A stretch of 64,000 nt of DNA. Origin: Oscillospiraceae bacterium (GTDB lineage: Bacteria > Bacillota > Clostridia > Oscillospirales > Oscillospiraceae). The notes below the pieces were generated by a model, which worked only from the letters and a program-made list of their open reading frames with translations, was not told the origin of the DNA and ran no database searches. This document shows, piece after piece, positions 6,651 through 58,552 of the stretch (the first letter of the stretch is position 1; each line of letters opens with the position of its first letter). Both the position numbers and the translations under genes were made by a program. The DNA lies in NCBI GenBank assembly GCA_017935145.1, contig JAGBIE010000001.1, forward strand, positions 1-64,000, written 5' to 3'.

Positions 6651-7844
6651 ATGGCAGATTTACTGCAAACTCCCTCTGGGAGCAGAATTCATATTGCCTT
6701 TTTGGGACGGCGAAATGTGGGAAAATCCTCTCTCATGAACGCCTTTACATCCCAAGAGATTTCCATTGTCGCCCCTGTGGCAGGCACGACCACTGACCCT
6801 GTGTCCAAAGCCATGGAACTGCTTCCTTTGGGAGCGGTCAATGTGATCGACACCGCAGGTTTGGACGATGAGGGGGATTTGGGCGCGCTCCGCGTGGAAA
6901 AGACCTATGACATTCTGGCAAAAGTACAGATTGCCATCGTAGTGGCAGATGCCACTGTGGGGCTTGGCGTATGGGAAGAGAAGATTCTTGCGTTCCTGCG
7001 AGAAAAGAAGATTCCCTACATCATCGCCATGAATAAGGCGGATTTGCTGGATACCATTCCCGCCGAAGAGGAAAACACCCTCTACCTTAGCGCCAAGGAT
7101 GGTACCAATGTCCACCGCCTGCGGGAAAAAACCGCCCATCTTCTGCCCCAAGGGGCAGTACAGCGCCCCTTGGTCTCCGATTTGGTAGAAAAGGGCGATA
7201 CGGTGGTCTTGGTTGTTCCCATCGATGCCTCTGCCCCCAAGGGACGGCTGATTTTGCCCCAGCAGATGGTCATCCGTGACCTTTTGGAGCATGAAATTTG
7301 TGCCGTTTGCACCAAGGATACCACTCTGCAAGATACCCTTTCCGCTCTCAAAGAAAAACCCGCTTTGGTCATTACCGATAGCCAAGTGTTTGGAAAGGTT
7401 TCTTCCATTGTGCCAGAAGATGTGCCACTCACCTCTTTTTCCATCCTTATGGCGCGCTATAAGGGGAGTTTGCAGCAGAGCCTTTTGGGCGCGGAAACCC
7501 TCATGACCCTTCACGATGGAGACAAGGTGCTCATTTCGGAGGGCTGTAGCCATCACCGCCAGTGTGAGGACATCGGCACAGTGAAAATTCCCAATCTCAT
7601 CCGCAAAGTCTTGGGGGTAGACCCCGATTTTACCTTTACATCAGGTGGCACATTCCCCAAGGATTTGGGAAGTTACCGTCTCGTCATCCACTGCGGGGGA
7701 TGCACTCTCACAGAGCAGGAAATGAAGAGTCGCATGACCCTCTGCCGTGAAAACGGCACGACTGTGACCAACTACGGCATGACCCTTGCCGCCCTGAACG
7801 GCATTTTAGAAAGAAGCATGAAGCCCCTGAAAGGAAAAATATAA
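6651..7844 (+). CDS. hydF: [FeFe]-hydrogenase maturation GTPase HydF
   Basis: 397 residues. The N-terminal GTPase domain shows the P-loop GRRNVGKSS (about 19-27), DTAGLDDEG and NKAD. A central dimerisation domain follows, and the C-terminal cluster-binding domain has SHHRQC (about residue 300) and HCGGC (about 350). HydF is the scaffold on which the 2Fe precursor is assembled before transfer to the hydrogenase. The ATG lies 3 bp after the hydG stop. All three maturases being intact and adjacent argues that the organism makes an active [FeFe] hydrogenase. Confidence 0.95.
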   Translation: MADLLQTPSGSRIHIAFLGRRNVGKSSLMNAFTSQEISIVAPVAGTTTDPVSKAMELLPLGAVNVIDTAGLDDEGDLGALRVEKTYDILAKVQIAIVVADATVGLGVWEEKILAFLREKKIPYIIAMNKADLLDTIPAEEENTLYLSAKDGTNVHRLREKTAHLLPQGAVQRPLVSDLVEKGDTVVLVVPIDASAPKGRLILPQQMVIRDLLEHEICAVCTKDTTLQDTLSALKEKPALVITDSQVFGKVSSIVPEDVPLTSFSILMARYKGSLQQSLLGAETLMTLHDGDKVLISEGCSHHRQCEDIGTVKIPNLIRKVLGVDPDFTFTSGGTFPKDLGSYRLVIHCGGCTLTEQEMKSRMTLCRENGTTVTNYGMTLAALNGILERSMKPLKGKI

Positions 7845-40410: not shown

Positions 40411-40494
40411 GCGGGCGTGGTGGAATTGGCAGACACGTTGGATTTAGGTTCCAATGGTTTTACCGTGCAGGTTCAAGTCCTGTCGCCCGCACCA
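40411..40494 (+). tRNA. tRNA-Leu (anticodon TAG)
   Basis: 84 nt including an encoded CCA end. The acceptor stem is GCGGGCG with CGCCCGC. The anticodon arm is TTGGA with TCCAA around TTTAGGT, giving anticodon TAG, which reads CUA leucine codons. The T arm has GTTCAAGTC. A variable arm of type II length fits leucine. Confidence 0.95.
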
Positions 40495-52355: not shown

Positions 52356-54185
52356 TTATTTGTACAGAGGACCGTAGGTGGCGCAGGCGCGATAGTCCTG
52401 ACCTTCCTTGTCCATGCCGAATGCATTCCAAGCGGCGGGACGATAGATCTGATCTTCGGGCACGTTGTGCATGCACACGGGGATACGAAGCATGGAGCAC
52501 ATGGTGATGAGGTCAGCACCGATGTGACCGTAGGAGATAGCACCGTGGTTGGCGCCCCAGTTCATCATGACTTCGTAAGCGCTCTTGAAGGGAGAACCTT
52601 CCTTGCCATCGCAACGAGGAGCAAACCAGGTGCAGGGCCAAGTGGGGTTGGTGCGTTCCATGAGCGCATCAGACACCTTGTCGGGCAGGTTCACAGTCCA
52701 GCCTTCGGCAATCTGCAGCACGGGGCCCAGACCCTTGACCAAGTTCAGACGAATCATGGTGCAGGGCATTTCGGCCTTGGTGGTGTAGTGGCTGCTGAAG
52801 CCGCCGCCACGGAAGTTGTCAAAGCCGGCTTCGCACCAAACGGTAGCATCGGTCATCTTCTTGATGTCTTCGTCAGTGACTTCCCACCACTTCTTCATGA
52901 TGGCGTTGCCCTTTTCATCGGTGCAGACACCGGAAGCATCCAAGCAGGCGGCGCCGGAGTTCAGCAGATGGATGATACCATCGGACTCTTTGGCCTTGCC
53001 CTTGAGCTTGTAGCCGGTAACACGCTGGGTGGCCTCGCCGGACCAGTAGGTACGCACGTCAGCGAAAATCTGAGCGCGATGGGTCAGCAGGCGCATCATC
53101 AGCATGCCCATGCCGTTGAGAATGTCATTTTCTGTGGCCAGAGTGAAGGGTTCACGAGCGCCTTCATAGTCAAAGGTGGAGGAGAGGAGTGCTTCGGGAT
53201 AGTCGCAGTTGGGCCAATGGTCGGTCCACTGTCTCTGACCCTGGAAACCACCGGCGATGGCATTGTGGCCAACCTTTTCTTCCTCAAATGCATCGGGGAG
53301 GTTGGGGTTGCCAGCCATGAGGTCCTTGATGATGCAGTACATCTTCACGGTGAACTCCCACTGCTTTTCCTTCTCTTCGGGAGTGAACTTAATCTTGCGG
53401 GTTTCACCCAAGAACTCTACGGATTCGGGGTTATCATCGCGACCCTCTTTGCAGTGTTCCTTGGTCCAAGCCAGTGCCTTCTGGAATTCTTCTTCGTTGT
53501 AGATGCCTTCTTCCATGCGGCGGAGGATTTCCACCTCGTCCACGGATTCTACACGCATGCCGAAATATTCTTCCATCACGCTCTGGTCCATGATGGAACC
53601 AGCGATACCCATGCACTGGGAGCCAATCTGCAGGTAGGACTTGCCACGCATGGTAGCAACAGCCACAGCGGCACGGCCGAAGCGGAGGAGTTTTTCCTTC
53701 ACGTCTTCGGGAATCTGGGTCACCTGATCGCGGTCCTGCACTTCATGACCATAGATGCCAAATGCGGGCAGACCCTTCTGGGCATGACCTGCCAAAACGG
53801 CGGCCAAATACACAGCACCGGGACGCTCTGTGCCGTTGAAGCCCCAAACACCCTTGATGGTGTGGGGGTCCATATCCATGGTTTCAGAGCCGTAGCACCA
53901 GCAGGGGGTGACGGACAGGGTGATGGACACGCCTTCCTTCTTAAACTTGTTAGCGCAGGCAGCGGCTTCGGGCACACGGCCGATGCAGGTGTCTGCCATA
54001 ACAACTTTCACGGGTTCACCGTTGGAGTAGAACAGGTTCTCCTCAAAAAGCTTCTTTGCAGCTTCTGCCATAGCCCAAACCAGGGGCTCCAAACTTTCGC
54101 GGAGCATCATGGGGCCACGGCGACCGTCAACAATAGGACGGATGCCAATGACGGGATAATCGCCAACGTATCTGTTCTTTGCCAT
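52356..54185 (-). CDS. fucI: L-fucose isomerase
   Basis: 609 residues from ATG at 54183-54185, 8 nt after AAGGAG; an upstream in-frame start lacks a site. Length and landmarks match FucI: GIRPIVDGRRGPMML (about 14-28), MADTCIGRVPEAAAC (about 63-77), WGFNGTERPGAV, the metal-site region ATENDILNGMGMLMMRLLTHR, and the C-terminal HVPEDQIYRP-like stretch. FucI converts L-fucose to L-fuculose and also acts on D-arabinose. A long open frame on the other strand is an artefact. First gene of the operon; divergent from an AraC regulator. Confidence 0.92.
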   Translation of the reverse strand: MAKNRYVGDYPVIGIRPIVDGRRGPMMLRESLEPLVWAMAEAAKKLFEENLFYSNGEPVKVVMADTCIGRVPEAAACANKFKKEGVSITLSVTPCWCYGSETMDMDPHTIKGVWGFNGTERPGAVYLAAVLAGHAQKGLPAFGIYGHEVQDRDQVTQIPEDVKEKLLRFGRAAVAVATMRGKSYLQIGSQCMGIAGSIMDQSVMEEYFGMRVESVDEVEILRRMEEGIYNEEEFQKALAWTKEHCKEGRDDNPESVEFLGETRKIKFTPEEKEKQWEFTVKMYCIIKDLMAGNPNLPDAFEEEKVGHNAIAGGFQGQRQWTDHWPNCDYPEALLSSTFDYEGAREPFTLATENDILNGMGMLMMRLLTHRAQIFADVRTYWSGEATQRVTGYKLKGKAKESDGIIHLLNSGAACLDASGVCTDEKGNAIMKKWWEVTDEDIKKMTDATVWCEAGFDNFRGGGFSSHYTTKAEMPCTMIRLNLVKGLGPVLQIAEGWTVNLPDKVSDALMERTNPTWPCTWFAPRCDGKEGSPFKSAYEVMMNWGANHGAISYGHIGADLITMCSMLRIPVCMHNVPEDQIYRPAAWNAFGMDKEGQDYRACATYGPLYK

Positions 54186-54331
54186 AAGTAAAACTCCTTC
54201 CAAATATATAAAATAAATTTGTTTTTTTTGAATGGGGAGCGGGTGGCAAAATGTGCCAAAAACCCATCCTCATACATTACTAAATACATCATACCGCAAA
54301 GGGCGGTATTTTTCCAATGTTGACAATAAAC

Positions 54332-54401: not shown

Positions 54402-54441
54402 AAAAAGTGTAGAAATCCACGTATTATAGGAGAAATTGCCC

Positions 54442-55227
54442 ATGTTTGACTATCTTACCACCAACCATTATGGCCGATGTGTCAAAAATAACGATTGGTA
54501 TCTCAAATCTTTTGGTGTCAATCGCATTCATTATATTCATCAGGGGCACTTGTCCATTATGTTGGATAATACCCGTTACGATTTGCAACCCCAGCGCATT
54601 TATCTCTTCCCGCAAAACCTGAAATTGGAACTGCTTTTGACGGAAGATACGGAGGTGGACCACACCTTTTTTGATTTCTTTACTCTGCCCGCCATCCGCA
54701 TGGATACCCTTATGGAAATTGACCCCAAGGAGCATCCTGTCATCGAAAAAGCCGCCCAAATTCTCTTCGATTTGGCGGAGCAATACCAGACCTACCCCTC
54801 CATGCAACGGAACGAATACAGCGACTTGGTGGAGTCTTATCTGCGGAATCTTTTGACTTTAATGGATAAAACATTCCCCATTCCGCTCATTACCGATGCC
54901 CGCATCAATGCCGCGCTGGACTACATCCACAAGCATTATAGCGAGGAATTGACCCTAGAGACCCTCACGGAAGTGACCAATTTGGAGATGAACTATTTCA
55001 TCCGCCTGTTTAAACAGACGGTGAACATGACCCCCTACCAATACATTAAAAAATACCGCTTCAATGTGGCCCTTTCCATGATGAAACAGGGGCACTCCAT
55101 GGGGGAAACCGCCCTTGCCATCGGCTATAGCGATGCGGTGTCCTTCTCCCACGGGTTTAAAAAATACTTTGGCAAAGCCCCTTCGGAATTTTCGCCCCGT
55201 AAAGGATTGAAAAAAGGCGGTTTTTAA
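54442..55227 (+). CDS. AraC-family regulator of the fucose-type operon
   Basis: 261 residues from ATG 54442, 9 nt after AGGAG; an earlier TTG is too close. The N-terminal cupin (about 15-75) binds the inducer and a linker follows. Two helix-turn-helix motifs end the protein: LTLETLTEVTNLEMNYFIRLFKQ (about 170-192) and SMGETALAIGYSDAVSFSHGFKKYFGKAPSEF (about 217-248). It is divergent from fucI, so it is probably the operon's activator, responding to fucose, rhamnose or a breakdown product. Confidence 0.9.
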   Translation: MFDYLTTNHYGRCVKNNDWYLKSFGVNRIHYIHQGHLSIMLDNTRYDLQPQRIYLFPQNLKLELLLTEDTEVDHTFFDFFTLPAIRMDTLMEIDPKEHPVIEKAAQILFDLAEQYQTYPSMQRNEYSDLVESYLRNLLTLMDKTFPIPLITDARINAALDYIHKHYSEELTLETLTEVTNLEMNYFIRLFKQTVNMTPYQYIKKYRFNVALSMMKQGHSMGETALAIGYSDAVSFSHGFKKYFGKAPSEFSPRKGLKKGGF

Positions 55228-55384
55228 ACCGCCCATCATAATCAGTATAGCAAATCGCAAGAAGAGTGTCAATAATATCTTGTGCATATTAACGGAAATC
55301 TGCGAATTATACGAAAGAAACTCGTGCAATTTGTACAAGTTGCCATATTGCAAAATGGGAAAAATCGTGTTAATGTATAGACAA

Positions 55385-55675
55385 GGAAAGGGTGATACCC
55401 GATGTACAGTTAACATAGAGGCTCAAAATACAGGTTGAGTCACCCTGGACAACTTTCCATCTGAACTGGATGCAAATCCAACAAACAGAATCTCCTGTAT
55501 GAGAAAAAATGAGTAAAGCGGTTTAAATAATTTGAGTTGTTTGGATGTAATTGAAAGGGAAGAGGAAAGTAGGTCCCCGAAACCGCAGAAAGAGAGGTTA
55601 ATCACAGATGTTAGATATCAAGAATTCACAGAAATAACCCTTGACTTGTCGTAAAGAAGGCAGTCAAGGGTTATT
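55385..55675 (+). ncRNA. Structured non-coding RNA candidate, about 290 nt
   Basis: No open frame spans it, yet it folds well. GGAAAG (55385-55390) pairs with CTTTCC (55453-55458), enclosing GGTGA (55391-55395) with TCACC (55440-55444) and CTCAA (55422-55426) with TTGAG (55435-55439). The loop of that last hairpin, ATACAGG (55428-55434), pairs perfectly with CCTGTAT (55494-55500), a 7-bp pseudoknot. GCGGTTT (55518-55524) pairs with AAACCGC (55580-55586). It ends in a terminator with a 14-bp perfect stem (55633-55675). A candidate promoter, TTGCAA with a poor -10 (55348-55376), precedes it. It resembles the large Firmicutes RNAs such as the raiA motif, but I cannot confirm a class. Confidence 0.7.
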
Positions 55676-55680
55676 TCTTT
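55633..55680 (+). terminator. Terminator of the ncRNA
   Basis: AATAACCCTTGACT pairs perfectly with AGTCAAGGGTTATT around a 15-nt loop, followed by TTTC and TTT. Confidence 0.88.
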
Positions 55681-55743: not shown

Positions 55744-57189
55744 TTAGGATTTCTTTCTCCAAGTGCCAGGATAGAGCGCAATGAGCAGAGGGTAAATTTC
55801 CAATCTGCCAAGGAGCATGCCTATGGAGAGGACGAATTTACTAAAGTAGGAATAGCAGTCATAGTTGGAGGCAGGGCCTACCAAATCAAAGCCAGGGCCA
55901 ATGTTATTAAAACAGGCTGCTGCGGCGCTAAAATGGGTGGTAAAGGACATATCTTCCAAACAAAGCAGCAGGACAATGGCCACAAAGCAGAACAGATATA
56001 CGCTCAAATACACGCCCACGCCGTGGGCGGTTTGGTCATCCAAGGTTTTTCCCTCAAATTTCACTGCAGTGACACTGCGGGGATGCACCAACTGGCGCAG
56101 TTGCCGTCCCACATTTTTTGCCATAATGACCACACGGGAGACTTTGAGACCGCCTGCCGTAGAACCAGCGCAAGCGCCCACGAACATCAGCAGGAGCAAA
56201 ATACCCTTGGAAAAACCAGGCCACAAGTTAAAATCTGTGGTGGCATAGCCCGTGGTAGTAATAATGGTGGAAACTTGGAACGATGCGTAACGCAGAGTTT
56301 CTGCGAAGGTGCTGTAAAGGTCTCGAATGTTGGCGCAAATCAAAGCGATGGCAACTACGACTATGGCAAGATAAGTCCAAAGTTCTGTGCTCTGCAACAC
56401 CGAGCGGAAACGGCGGATCAGAAGCAAGTAGTAGAGGTTAAAGTTAATGCCAAATAGGAGCATGAAAATGGTAATGACCCACTGGCAGTAAGGGGAGTAG
56501 GAGGCAATGGAGGTAGCTCTGGAACTAAAACCGCCTGTGCCTGCCGCGCCAAAAGTGTGAATGAGACTCTCAAAGAGGCTCATGCCACCTAAAAGGAGCA
56601 ACACTACCATCACTGCGGTCATGCCCAAATAGATTTTGTAGAGAATCATGGCCGTATCTTTGGCTTTGGGCACGATTTTACCCACAATGGGACCGGGCAT
56701 TTCTGCCCGCAGGATGTGAATGGTGCGGTCAGACACACTGGGAAGCAGTGCCGTTACAAAGACCAAGATGCCCATACCACCCACCCAGTGAGTGAAACTG
56801 CGCCACAGAAGCAGTCCGTGGCTCATGGCTTCCACATCGTTTAAGATGGATGCGCCCGTGGTGGTAAAACCACTGACGGTTTCAAAAAAAGCATCAATAA
56901 AATGGGGAATTTCCCCCGAAATTACAAAGGGCAGAGCACCCACAGCGGACATGAAAATCCAAGCCAGTGCCGTAATGCAGAAACCCTCGCGAGCGTAGAT
57001 GACACGGCTTTTGGGGCGGGAGAGGAGCACCATGGTCTGCCCCAACACAAGGGCAAGAAGCATGGTCTGCAGAATCGCCCATGCGCAGGATTCTCCGTAG
57101 AGCACTGCGGTGGCAAGGGGCAAAATCAAAAGACCCGCTTCCGCAGTGACCATCTTGCCCACCACGGAAAAAATCATTCTTCGGTTCAT
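55744..57189 (-). CDS. trkH: Potassium uptake channel subunit TrkH
   Basis: 481 residues with four pore repeats: FTTTGAS (about 94-100), GTGGFSS (about 218-224), TTTGYATTD (about 316-324) and a fourth repeat in NNIGPGFDLVG (about 432). These form the selectivity filter of Trk/Ktr channels. The TrkA gene follows on the right, upstream in transcription, with 4 bp between. Both are probably cotranscribed. Confidence 0.93.
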   Translation of the reverse strand: MNRRMIFSVVGKMVTAEAGLLILPLATAVLYGESCAWAILQTMLLALVLGQTMVLLSRPKSRVIYAREGFCITALAWIFMSAVGALPFVISGEIPHFIDAFFETVSGFTTTGASILNDVEAMSHGLLLWRSFTHWVGGMGILVFVTALLPSVSDRTIHILRAEMPGPIVGKIVPKAKDTAMILYKIYLGMTAVMVVLLLLGGMSLFESLIHTFGAAGTGGFSSRATSIASYSPYCQWVITIFMLLFGINFNLYYLLLIRRFRSVLQSTELWTYLAIVVVAIALICANIRDLYSTFAETLRYASFQVSTIITTTGYATTDFNLWPGFSKGILLLLMFVGACAGSTAGGLKVSRVVIMAKNVGRQLRQLVHPRSVTAVKFEGKTLDDQTAHGVGVYLSVYLFCFVAIVLLLCLEDMSFTTHFSAAAACFNNIGPGFDLVGPASNYDCYSYFSKFVLSIGMLLGRLEIYPLLIALYPGTWRKKS

Positions 57190-57193
57190 AGGC

Positions 57194-58552
57194 TTACCTC
57201 AAAATATCGGAAAGGTCTTGGAAGCGGTGACCTGTGGTCATAACCACCACACGGTCGCCTGCCATGAGCACATCATCACCGGAGGGGATGATGGCCTTGC
57301 GACTGCGCAAAATGCCCGTGAGTAGGACATTGTCCTTGAGTTTCAGATCTTTTAAGGGGATATTGGTGTGGGAGAAATCTTCCCGCACGAAGAATTCCAG
57401 CGCCTCGGCTTTGCCGTCCATGACCTTGTAGAGGGTCTCTACGCTACTTCCCATGGAGTTTTCCAGAGCACGGGCATAGCGCACCAAGATATTGGCAACG
57501 GTGTCGCGGGGGCTGACCAGACTGTCCAAGCCCATTTTCTGCGCCAAAGTTGCCATTTCAGGGCGGTTGGCTTTGCAAATGACCTTAGGTACATTTTGCG
57601 ATTCGGCAAAAATGGAAATCAGGATATTCTCTTCATCCATGCCCGTGAGGGCCACAAAGGCATCTGTGTGGGCAAGACCGGATTCCAACAGCAGTTCTTG
57701 GGAAGCGCCATCACCACAGATGACCGTTGCCTTGGGCATAGCCTCGGCAAATTCTGCACAGCGGGCGGGATTTTTGTCAATGACTGTCACGCGGTTACCG
57801 CTGGCGAGGAGGGCTTGGGTCAGATAGTAAGCAATTTTGCTAGCGCCCAAGAGCATAACACTGCGCGCCTGTTTTTGGAGCAGACCCAGCATTTTCAGGA
57901 GTTTTTGCACCTCGTGCGGGGCGGCATACAGACCAATGCGGTCGCCTGCCTTCAGTTCAAAATTACCATCGGGGATGATAACCTCTTCTCCACGCATGAC
58001 GCAACCAATCAGATAGCGGGCGGGGAATTTCTTTCGCAGTTGCCACAAACTCATACCCAAGAGGGCGGAATCTTCCCGCAGAAGCAGTTCCACCATCTCA
58101 AAATTCCGCTGGGAGAAGGTTTCAATCTTCACCGCAGAGGGGAGTTTGAGAATGTTAAACAGTTCTTCCGCGGTGAGCCGTTCGGGGTTGAGCGAGTTTG
58201 CCAGCCCCAACTGCTGACGCATAAAACCCAAGGATTCGTCATTGTAGTCGGGGTTGCGGATGCGGGCGATGGTGTGTCCCGCTTTCATGCACTTTGCCAA
58301 GAAGCAAGCGAGCATGTTCTTTTCATCGGAATCTGTGGTGGCAACGAAGAGTTCCGCCTCGGAAACGCCCGCCTCTGCCAAAGTGTCGCAGTCCGTGCCG
58401 TTACCGCACACGCCGATGACATCGTAGATATTGTTCAGTTCTTCAATGACCGCGGGATTATCATCGATGGCGGTCACATTGTGACCTTCCGCCACCAAAT
58501 TCCGCAGAAGCGTAGAACCGATTTTGCCACAACCAGCAATGATGATATTCAT
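57194..58552 (-). CDS. trkA: Potassium uptake regulatory protein TrkA
   Basis: 452 residues: two RCK units in tandem, each with a Rossmann NAD-binding domain (GCGKIGSTLLRNL near residue 7, LLGASKIAYYLTQALL near 235) and a C-terminal ligand domain. It gates TrkH according to the NAD(H) or ATP state. The length fits the two-repeat TrkA type rather than the single-repeat KtrA. Confidence 0.93.
   Translation of the reverse strand: MNIIIAGCGKIGSTLLRNLVAEGHNVTAIDDNPAVIEELNNIYDVIGVCGNGTDCDTLAEAGVSEAELFVATTDSDEKNMLACFLAKCMKAGHTIARIRNPDYNDESLGFMRQQLGLANSLNPERLTAEELFNILKLPSAVKIETFSQRNFEMVELLLREDSALLGMSLWQLRKKFPARYLIGCVMRGEEVIIPDGNFELKAGDRIGLYAAPHEVQKLLKMLGLLQKQARSVMLLGASKIAYYLTQALLASGNRVTVIDKNPARCAEFAEAMPKATVICGDGASQELLLESGLAHTDAFVALTGMDEENILISIFAESQNVPKVICKANRPEMATLAQKMGLDSLVSPRDTVANILVRYARALENSMGSSVETLYKVMDGKAEALEFFVREDFSHTNIPLKDLKLKDNVLLTGILRSRKAIIPSGDDVLMAGDRVVVMTTGHRFQDLSDILR

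Follow-up and report, generated by a model that had tools for sequence, protein, structure and literature searches.

Dual-function small RNAs, among them SgrS/SgrT, RNAIII/hld and SR1, are small transcripts that combine a short ORF of tens of codons with non-coding parts. Leader-peptide and translational attenuators set a minute ORF with a strong Shine-Dalgarno near a terminator hairpin, Gram-positive mRNAs can be stabilised by a strong Shine-Dalgarno that stands right at their 5' end (the STAB-SD), and tmRNA has, besides a tRNA-like part, a structured body with an ORF of some 10 codons. The family that we describe here has something of each. Like the dual-function small RNAs, it is predicted to be a small transcript that holds a short ORF together with non-coding parts, and it is conserved as a free-standing unit with its own promoter and terminator and a small ORF behind a ribosome-binding site; unlike them, its ORFs have 2-3 and 8-10 codons, lie at the two ends, and the second is fused to the terminator. 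As in leader-peptide attenuators, an ORF overlaps the terminator, with its stop codon in the stem, but no regulated co-directional gene lies downstream. The 5' end of the RNA is a strong Shine-Dalgarno, as in STAB-SD mRNAs, but here a start-stop mini-ORF follows, on a small free-standing RNA. A structured RNA with an ORF of some ten codons also recalls tmRNA, but this one has no tRNA-like part, and its ORF comes with a Shine-Dalgarno and a start codon of its own.

The raiA motif RNA, or ModT (RF03072), is highly conserved in sequence and contains two pseudoknots (PMC11706538). Like the present family it is a free-standing RNA, of about 200-300 nt, that occurs in Clostridia with its own sigma-A promoter and terminator (PMC11706538). 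The family described here differs in that its middle is variable, its conserved parts are ribosome-binding sites and micro-ORFs, and it gives no RF03072 match.

The locus that led us to this family lies in a window of 64,000 nucleotides from an Oscillospiraceae bacterium (assembly GCA_017935145.1, contig JAGBIE010000001.1, positions 1 to 64,000). A preliminary description of this sequence had proposed that the gap between an AraC-type regulator gene and trkH holds a conserved structured RNA, free-standing, closed by a terminator and of a class that was not recognised. The relatives bear this out: the gene is real and conserved because they share its architecture, not because of the grounds first given for it. 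Our main reading, to which we give a probability of roughly 55%, is that the unit is a free-standing, transcriptionally regulated micro-mRNA or dual-function small RNA whose ends load ribosomes.

The locus in the window

The unit and its flanks comprise the following features (positions in the window, strand, description):

52356-54203, minus: L-fucose isomerase gene, flank
54436-55227, plus: AraC-type regulator gene, flank
55291-55347, plus: conserved upstream promoter element, AATTCTgcGTTTTGCACAA ... TTTGTACAATATTCC(A/G)TC, from a 69-promoter alignment and a profile match
55330-55338, plus: copy of the direct repeat TTTGYACAA (here tttgtacaa) within the upstream element
55348-55376, plus: sigma-A type promoter, with -35 TTGCAA at 55348-55353, a 17-bp spacer and -10 TAATGT at 55371-55376
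about 55382-55384, plus: predicted transcription start, placed from the -10
55385-55396, plus: 5' Shine-Dalgarno GGAAAGGGTGAT, conserved in the family
55402-55413, plus: mini-ORF ATG TAC AGT TAA (Met-Tyr-Ser-stop, MYS*), with variants in the family
55420-55441, plus: hairpin after the mini-ORF, GGCTCAA/TTGAGTC, arms 55420-55426/55435-55441
55442-55587, plus: variable middle, predicted to be folded, with the other helices of the preliminary description
55588-55597, plus: 3' Shine-Dalgarno GAAAGAGAGG
55608-55637, plus: nonapeptide ORF MLDIKNSQK*, matched by the covariance model, its stop within the terminator 5' arm
55630-55678, plus: intrinsic terminator with a 17-bp stem that covaries in 55 sequences, loop 55647-55661, U-tract 55673-55679
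55744-57189, minus: TrkH gene, the next gene after the RNA, with its own terminator
57194-58552, minus: TrkA gene, flank

The terminator of the unit probably works in both directions.

On its own, the window sequence is an insufficient case for an RNA gene. All five complementary pairs that had been named exist and are perfect Watson-Crick, and the claimed terminator is there as the 17-bp hairpin 55630-55646/55662-55678. So many matching elements had been taken as the mark of a conserved RNA, but within the window complements and folding are near chance: between 55380 and 55607 there are 4 complements of 7 bp against 1.45 expected from dinucleotide shuffles (31 of 300 reach 4) and 13 of 6 bp against 6.1 (10 of 300 reach 13), and the minimum free energy of the RNA without its terminator corresponds to z = -1.0. 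For the entire stretch z is -5.1, most of which the terminator supplies. Moreover, with all 7 bp of the helix 55422-55426/55435-55439 counted, two of the proposed helices overlap, and no alignable relative was found for the middle of the window copy, which holds the proposed pseudoknot and the helices 55385/55453, 55391/55440 and 55518/55580.

It is comparison with relatives that is decisive, and it moves attention to other parts. The gap was right to be called free of long frames, but ORFs of 3 and 9 codons are among its conserved parts; in fact, the two ribosome-binding sites with their minute ORFs and the promoter, all overlooked at first, are what is most conserved. Similarly, the stretch 55348-55680 does hold a conserved unit, but its 5' limit was set too far downstream, the promoter profile R2 matching 55291-55384 (E 8e-15).

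A likeness to raiA/ModT had also been suggested, and the Rfam scan speaks against it. Rfam 15 gave the unit in the window no family match at the gathering score and only terminator-like noise up to E 10, raiA and the other large RNAs that had been named were all negative, the models of OLE, GOLLD, ROOL, 6S and tmRNA had no match in the window, ARAGORN found no tmRNA there, and 20 family relatives gave no raiA/ModT match at the gathering score. The sole Rfam gathering-score or ARAGORN match in the window is a tRNA-Leu at 40411-40494 (+).

A family in gut Clostridia

When the 331-base stretch was compared with 99 relative genomes, 17 of them gave matches, nearly all to its 3' end (about 55580-55680 of the window); in one genome the 5' end matched in addition to the 3' end. 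Lined up, the matches from these 17 genomes revealed a common plan. The architecture shared across the family consists of a promoter, a 5' Shine-Dalgarno with, in many copies, a mini-ORF, a variable folded middle, a 3' Shine-Dalgarno with an ORF, and a terminator. A pattern drawn from the 3' end, GAAAGAGAGGT-N(1-14)-ATG(C/T)TAGATA, was run on bacterial contigs from one genome per species and found at least 116 stretches, almost all in gut or rumen Clostridia and mainly in Oscillospiraceae. The deduplicated set, for which 7 ordinary longer genes and 1 match running off its contig end were set aside from 141 matches, holds at least 133 modules in which an ORF of 8-9 codons (11 in two of them) ends in the terminator.

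A covariance model (R1) built from 55 aligned members of the 3' module recovers the window copy at 55581-55679 with E 4.8e-16. By this model, trained on pattern-selected sequences so that copy counts are lower bounds, the RNA occurs in 38 of the 150 genomes searched from its own taxonomic family (1-4 copies each), in 44 of 295 genomes of the order and in 22 of 391 of the class, with other families of Clostridia among the carriers; a phylum sample of 398 genomes held no carrier except the window's own genome. Because of this training, the 3' ORF is probably more widespread than these figures show. From these sequences the existence of the RNA family is near certain; it occurs in many gut Clostridia and is absent from Rfam. 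A literature search found neither a description of the family nor its commonest peptides; a 2021 survey of structured-RNA candidates from human microbiomes (PMC8040213) might list some of it. One carrier genome also has two neighbouring Gut-1 RNAs (RF01706) on opposite strands, at 7465-7543 (+) and 7639-7718 (-) of L053.

Conserved ends and a variable middle

The terminator stem carries strong covariation. In 55 sequences 95% of its cells are paired, and 157 cells are compensated, where shuffles give 39.8 and slid controls no more than 46. The stop codon of the 3' ORF lies in the terminator 5' arm in 109 of 112 members by script and in the remaining 3 by eye, and the column of its second base is A-U in 27 sequences and G-C in 24, for TAA and TGA respectively. 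Thus stop codon and stem are maintained together, TAA and TGA being swapped along with the partner on the other arm. Upstream, the predicted accessibility of the 3' Shine-Dalgarno exceeds that of the middle (0.62 against 0.445, P 9e-15). The terminator loop is often GTAAAGAAAC or GGTGAAAGATG, and a GAAAGA-like loop is found in 38 of 109 members (a raw count), a recurrence that hints at a functional loop.

Could the ORF-like ends belong to a purely structured non-coding RNA, as motifs that bind, say, a protein or another RNA? We consider this unlikely. It would account for the near-fixed letters TTA GAT: in the main group, Leu at codon 2 is TTA in 60 of 68 cases and Asp at codon 3 is GAT in 67 of 67, so that the RNA letters, not the peptide alone, appear constrained, a bias to which the pattern-trained model may add. 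Yet in divergent copies found by the model the frame is kept, with alternative starts, all three stops and exchanges of Ile/Val/Leu and of Asp/Glu. These copies read MIEPKNLEK, MIEPKHFEK, MVEPKTQQQ, MIEPNNEER, MLEPNYFAE, MVLDFKSEQK, MKLQIDSEQK and MLDPNEES, as well as MVEIQNHQ with a TTG start; in nine-codon ORFs from non-pattern loci, the stop is TGA in 42, TAA in 31 and TAG in 7.

At the 5' end, too, mini-ORF codons differ while the stop is kept, again contrary to a purely non-coding RNA. In most members a strong Shine-Dalgarno (AGAAAGGGTGAT or GAGGTGAT) comes directly after the promoter, and in the mini-ORF one or two sense codons separate start and stop; MYR* is the commonest form, with MY*, MYN*, MYK*, MNR*, MFK*, MF*, MI*, MK* and MEK* as variants. 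It is present in about 53 of 83 members (about 60%), a count that allows for an upstream in-frame GTG sometimes taken as the start by the script; after shuffling, an equally early stop occurs in about 14 of the 83, and some 30-40% of copies have no recognisable mini-ORF. One member (L171, 560-1249 on the minus strand, G049:C29) contains a 105-nt tandem repeat that bears MRLNFKSPIK* with MYS* and MRVAFQAPIK* with MCN*; a last ORF, MVLDFKSEQK*, and the terminator follow it, so that the unit has five micro-ORFs.

The middle, too, speaks for a structured RNA. Its folding beats that of shuffled sequence (mean z -2.27 in 40 members), and it has two recurrent, statistically supported hairpins, in keeping with the structure that had been proposed. 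The first follows the mini-ORF and is present in 27 of 42 members, where 12.6 would be expected (maximum 18), with arms that differ yet remain complementary; the helix 55422-55426/55435-55439 is its version in the window. The second, about 100 nt before the 3' ORF, has an [AG]CTTA loop on stems such as TCTC/GAGA, TCCC/GGGA and TCTT/AAGA and occurs in 20 of 112 members, where 1.1 would be expected. In an alignment whose sequences were picked by the TTCCGRCA motif that precedes the hairpin, and not by the hairpin itself, 73.7% of its cells pair against 65.5% when shuffled, and 22 cells are compensated against 13; in the window copy this hairpin is not clearly recognisable. All the same, middles range from about 300 nt down to about 20 nt (L133), and in L133 and L013, where they shrink to some 20-40 nt, both ends stay, which a purely structured RNA would not lead one to expect. 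Nor do the middles mask the ribosome-binding sites in general: sequence complementary to either Shine-Dalgarno shows no excess over chance in them, so although such pairing is possible in the window (GGGTGA/TCACCC), it is not general in the family.

The converse, a micro-peptide gene whose sole product is the nonapeptide and whose remainder is a 5' UTR, seems to us more doubtful still. No part varies less than the 3' ORF, it has a consensus, M-[LIV]-[DE]-x-[KN]-x-x-x-[KEN], and changes of one codon in length leave its frame intact. A one-base deletion yields an 11-codon ORF in two tandem copies (L055) and in one other (L185). However, synonymous sites at codons 2-3 are near-fixed, positions 4, 6 and 7 vary freely, and the C-terminal residues (codons 8-9) are partly dictated by the pairing of an A-tract with the terminator U-tract. 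The mini-ORF and the middle hairpins are, moreover, conserved independently, which a peptide alone would leave unexplained.

Promoter, neighbours and a possible role

A promoter was found for 87 of 112 members. Upstream of the -35, an alignment of 69 promoters (A3) contains a conserved AATTCTgcGTTTTGCACAA ... TTTGTACAATATTCC(A/G)TCTTG, and the direct repeat TTTGYACAA occurs in this element in copies about 24 bp apart. Of the strong matches that R2 gives in 30 genomes (E < 1e-8), all but one, at a contig end, directly precede members of the family. The element is probably the site of a dedicated regulator, a putative activator, which would act at the promoter. The profile gave no co-regulated protein genes: weaker matches precede unrelated genes (thioredoxin, tRNA synthetase and phage-like, names given from sequence only) and are therefore taken as noise. 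In L274 and L275, two small genes that resemble each other are preceded by weak matches, with operators that look palindromic (ACTTATGCAAGTATG and CACTTGATTTAGTG); both cases probably have nothing to do with the RNA family.

The neighbourhood bears on a third alternative, a translation-coupled attenuator in which a ribosome that has reached the stop codon would keep the terminator from acting, so that polymerase runs on into the next gene. The position of the stop codon in the terminator 5' arm is just what such a device would need, but the next gene is convergent at 58 of the 112 loci and co-directional at 48, the upstream gene divides 53 to 52 between orientations, and no neighbouring protein family recurs above 7 of 112 loci. 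In the window, trkH even lies on the opposite strand. Because neighbours and their orientations are random, we set a cis-acting attenuator aside as very improbable. That the unit is a dispersed, MITE-like selfish repeat and not a host gene is scarcely credible: several copies per genome, tandem copies at some loci and a patchy distribution would fit it, but the element has its own promoter and a terminator with compensatory changes, it keeps its chromosomal place within a genus, and it matched a single viral contig, at the contig end, and nothing in plasmid or phage records, so that a phage or plasmid origin finds no support either. In the genus concerned, three genomes share the 3-kb surroundings of the element and a fourth shares part of them, and this kept location argues for vertical inheritance there.

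To explain these results we return to the micro-mRNA or dual-function small RNA. We propose that the promoter, with its candidate activator site, would yield a transcript of about 300 nt in the window and of about 110-400 nt in relatives, which would be both transcribed and translated. In most copies, initiating ribosomes would occupy the 5' Shine-Dalgarno and soon leave it at the 2-3-codon start-stop ORF, and in doing so may protect the RNA from 5' decay in the manner of a STAB-SD. The variable folded domain comes next. The second, exposed Shine-Dalgarno would then direct translation of the 8-10-codon ORF into the terminator, producing the nonapeptide and placing ribosomes at both ends, since this ORF ends inside the terminator hairpin. 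By analogy, the two ends may thus act as ribosome-loading stabilisers, and the output would be a trans-acting product, the structured middle, the peptide or both. Several observations count against this reading: the near-fixed letters of codons 2-3, the hold of the A-tract on codons 8-9, the copies in which no mini-ORF can be recognised and the one-base deletions in L055 and L185. Tentatively, and at less than even odds, we envision a new class of RNA gene whose very function is to load ribosomes onto minute start-stop ORFs at the two ends of a small structured RNA. Such a ribosome-guarded or ribosome-trapping RNA would be switched on by a dedicated regulator and would have spread through gut Clostridia.

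This widespread gene family of gut and rumen Clostridia has apparently escaped notice: protein calling misses genes so short, and its variability hides it from searches for structured RNAs. Its specific promoter element offers a route to the family's regulator. With conserved ORFs of 2-10 codons, far below the limits of annotation, the family provides a direct test case for what maintains such frames: translation as such, the peptide made or the stability of the RNA.
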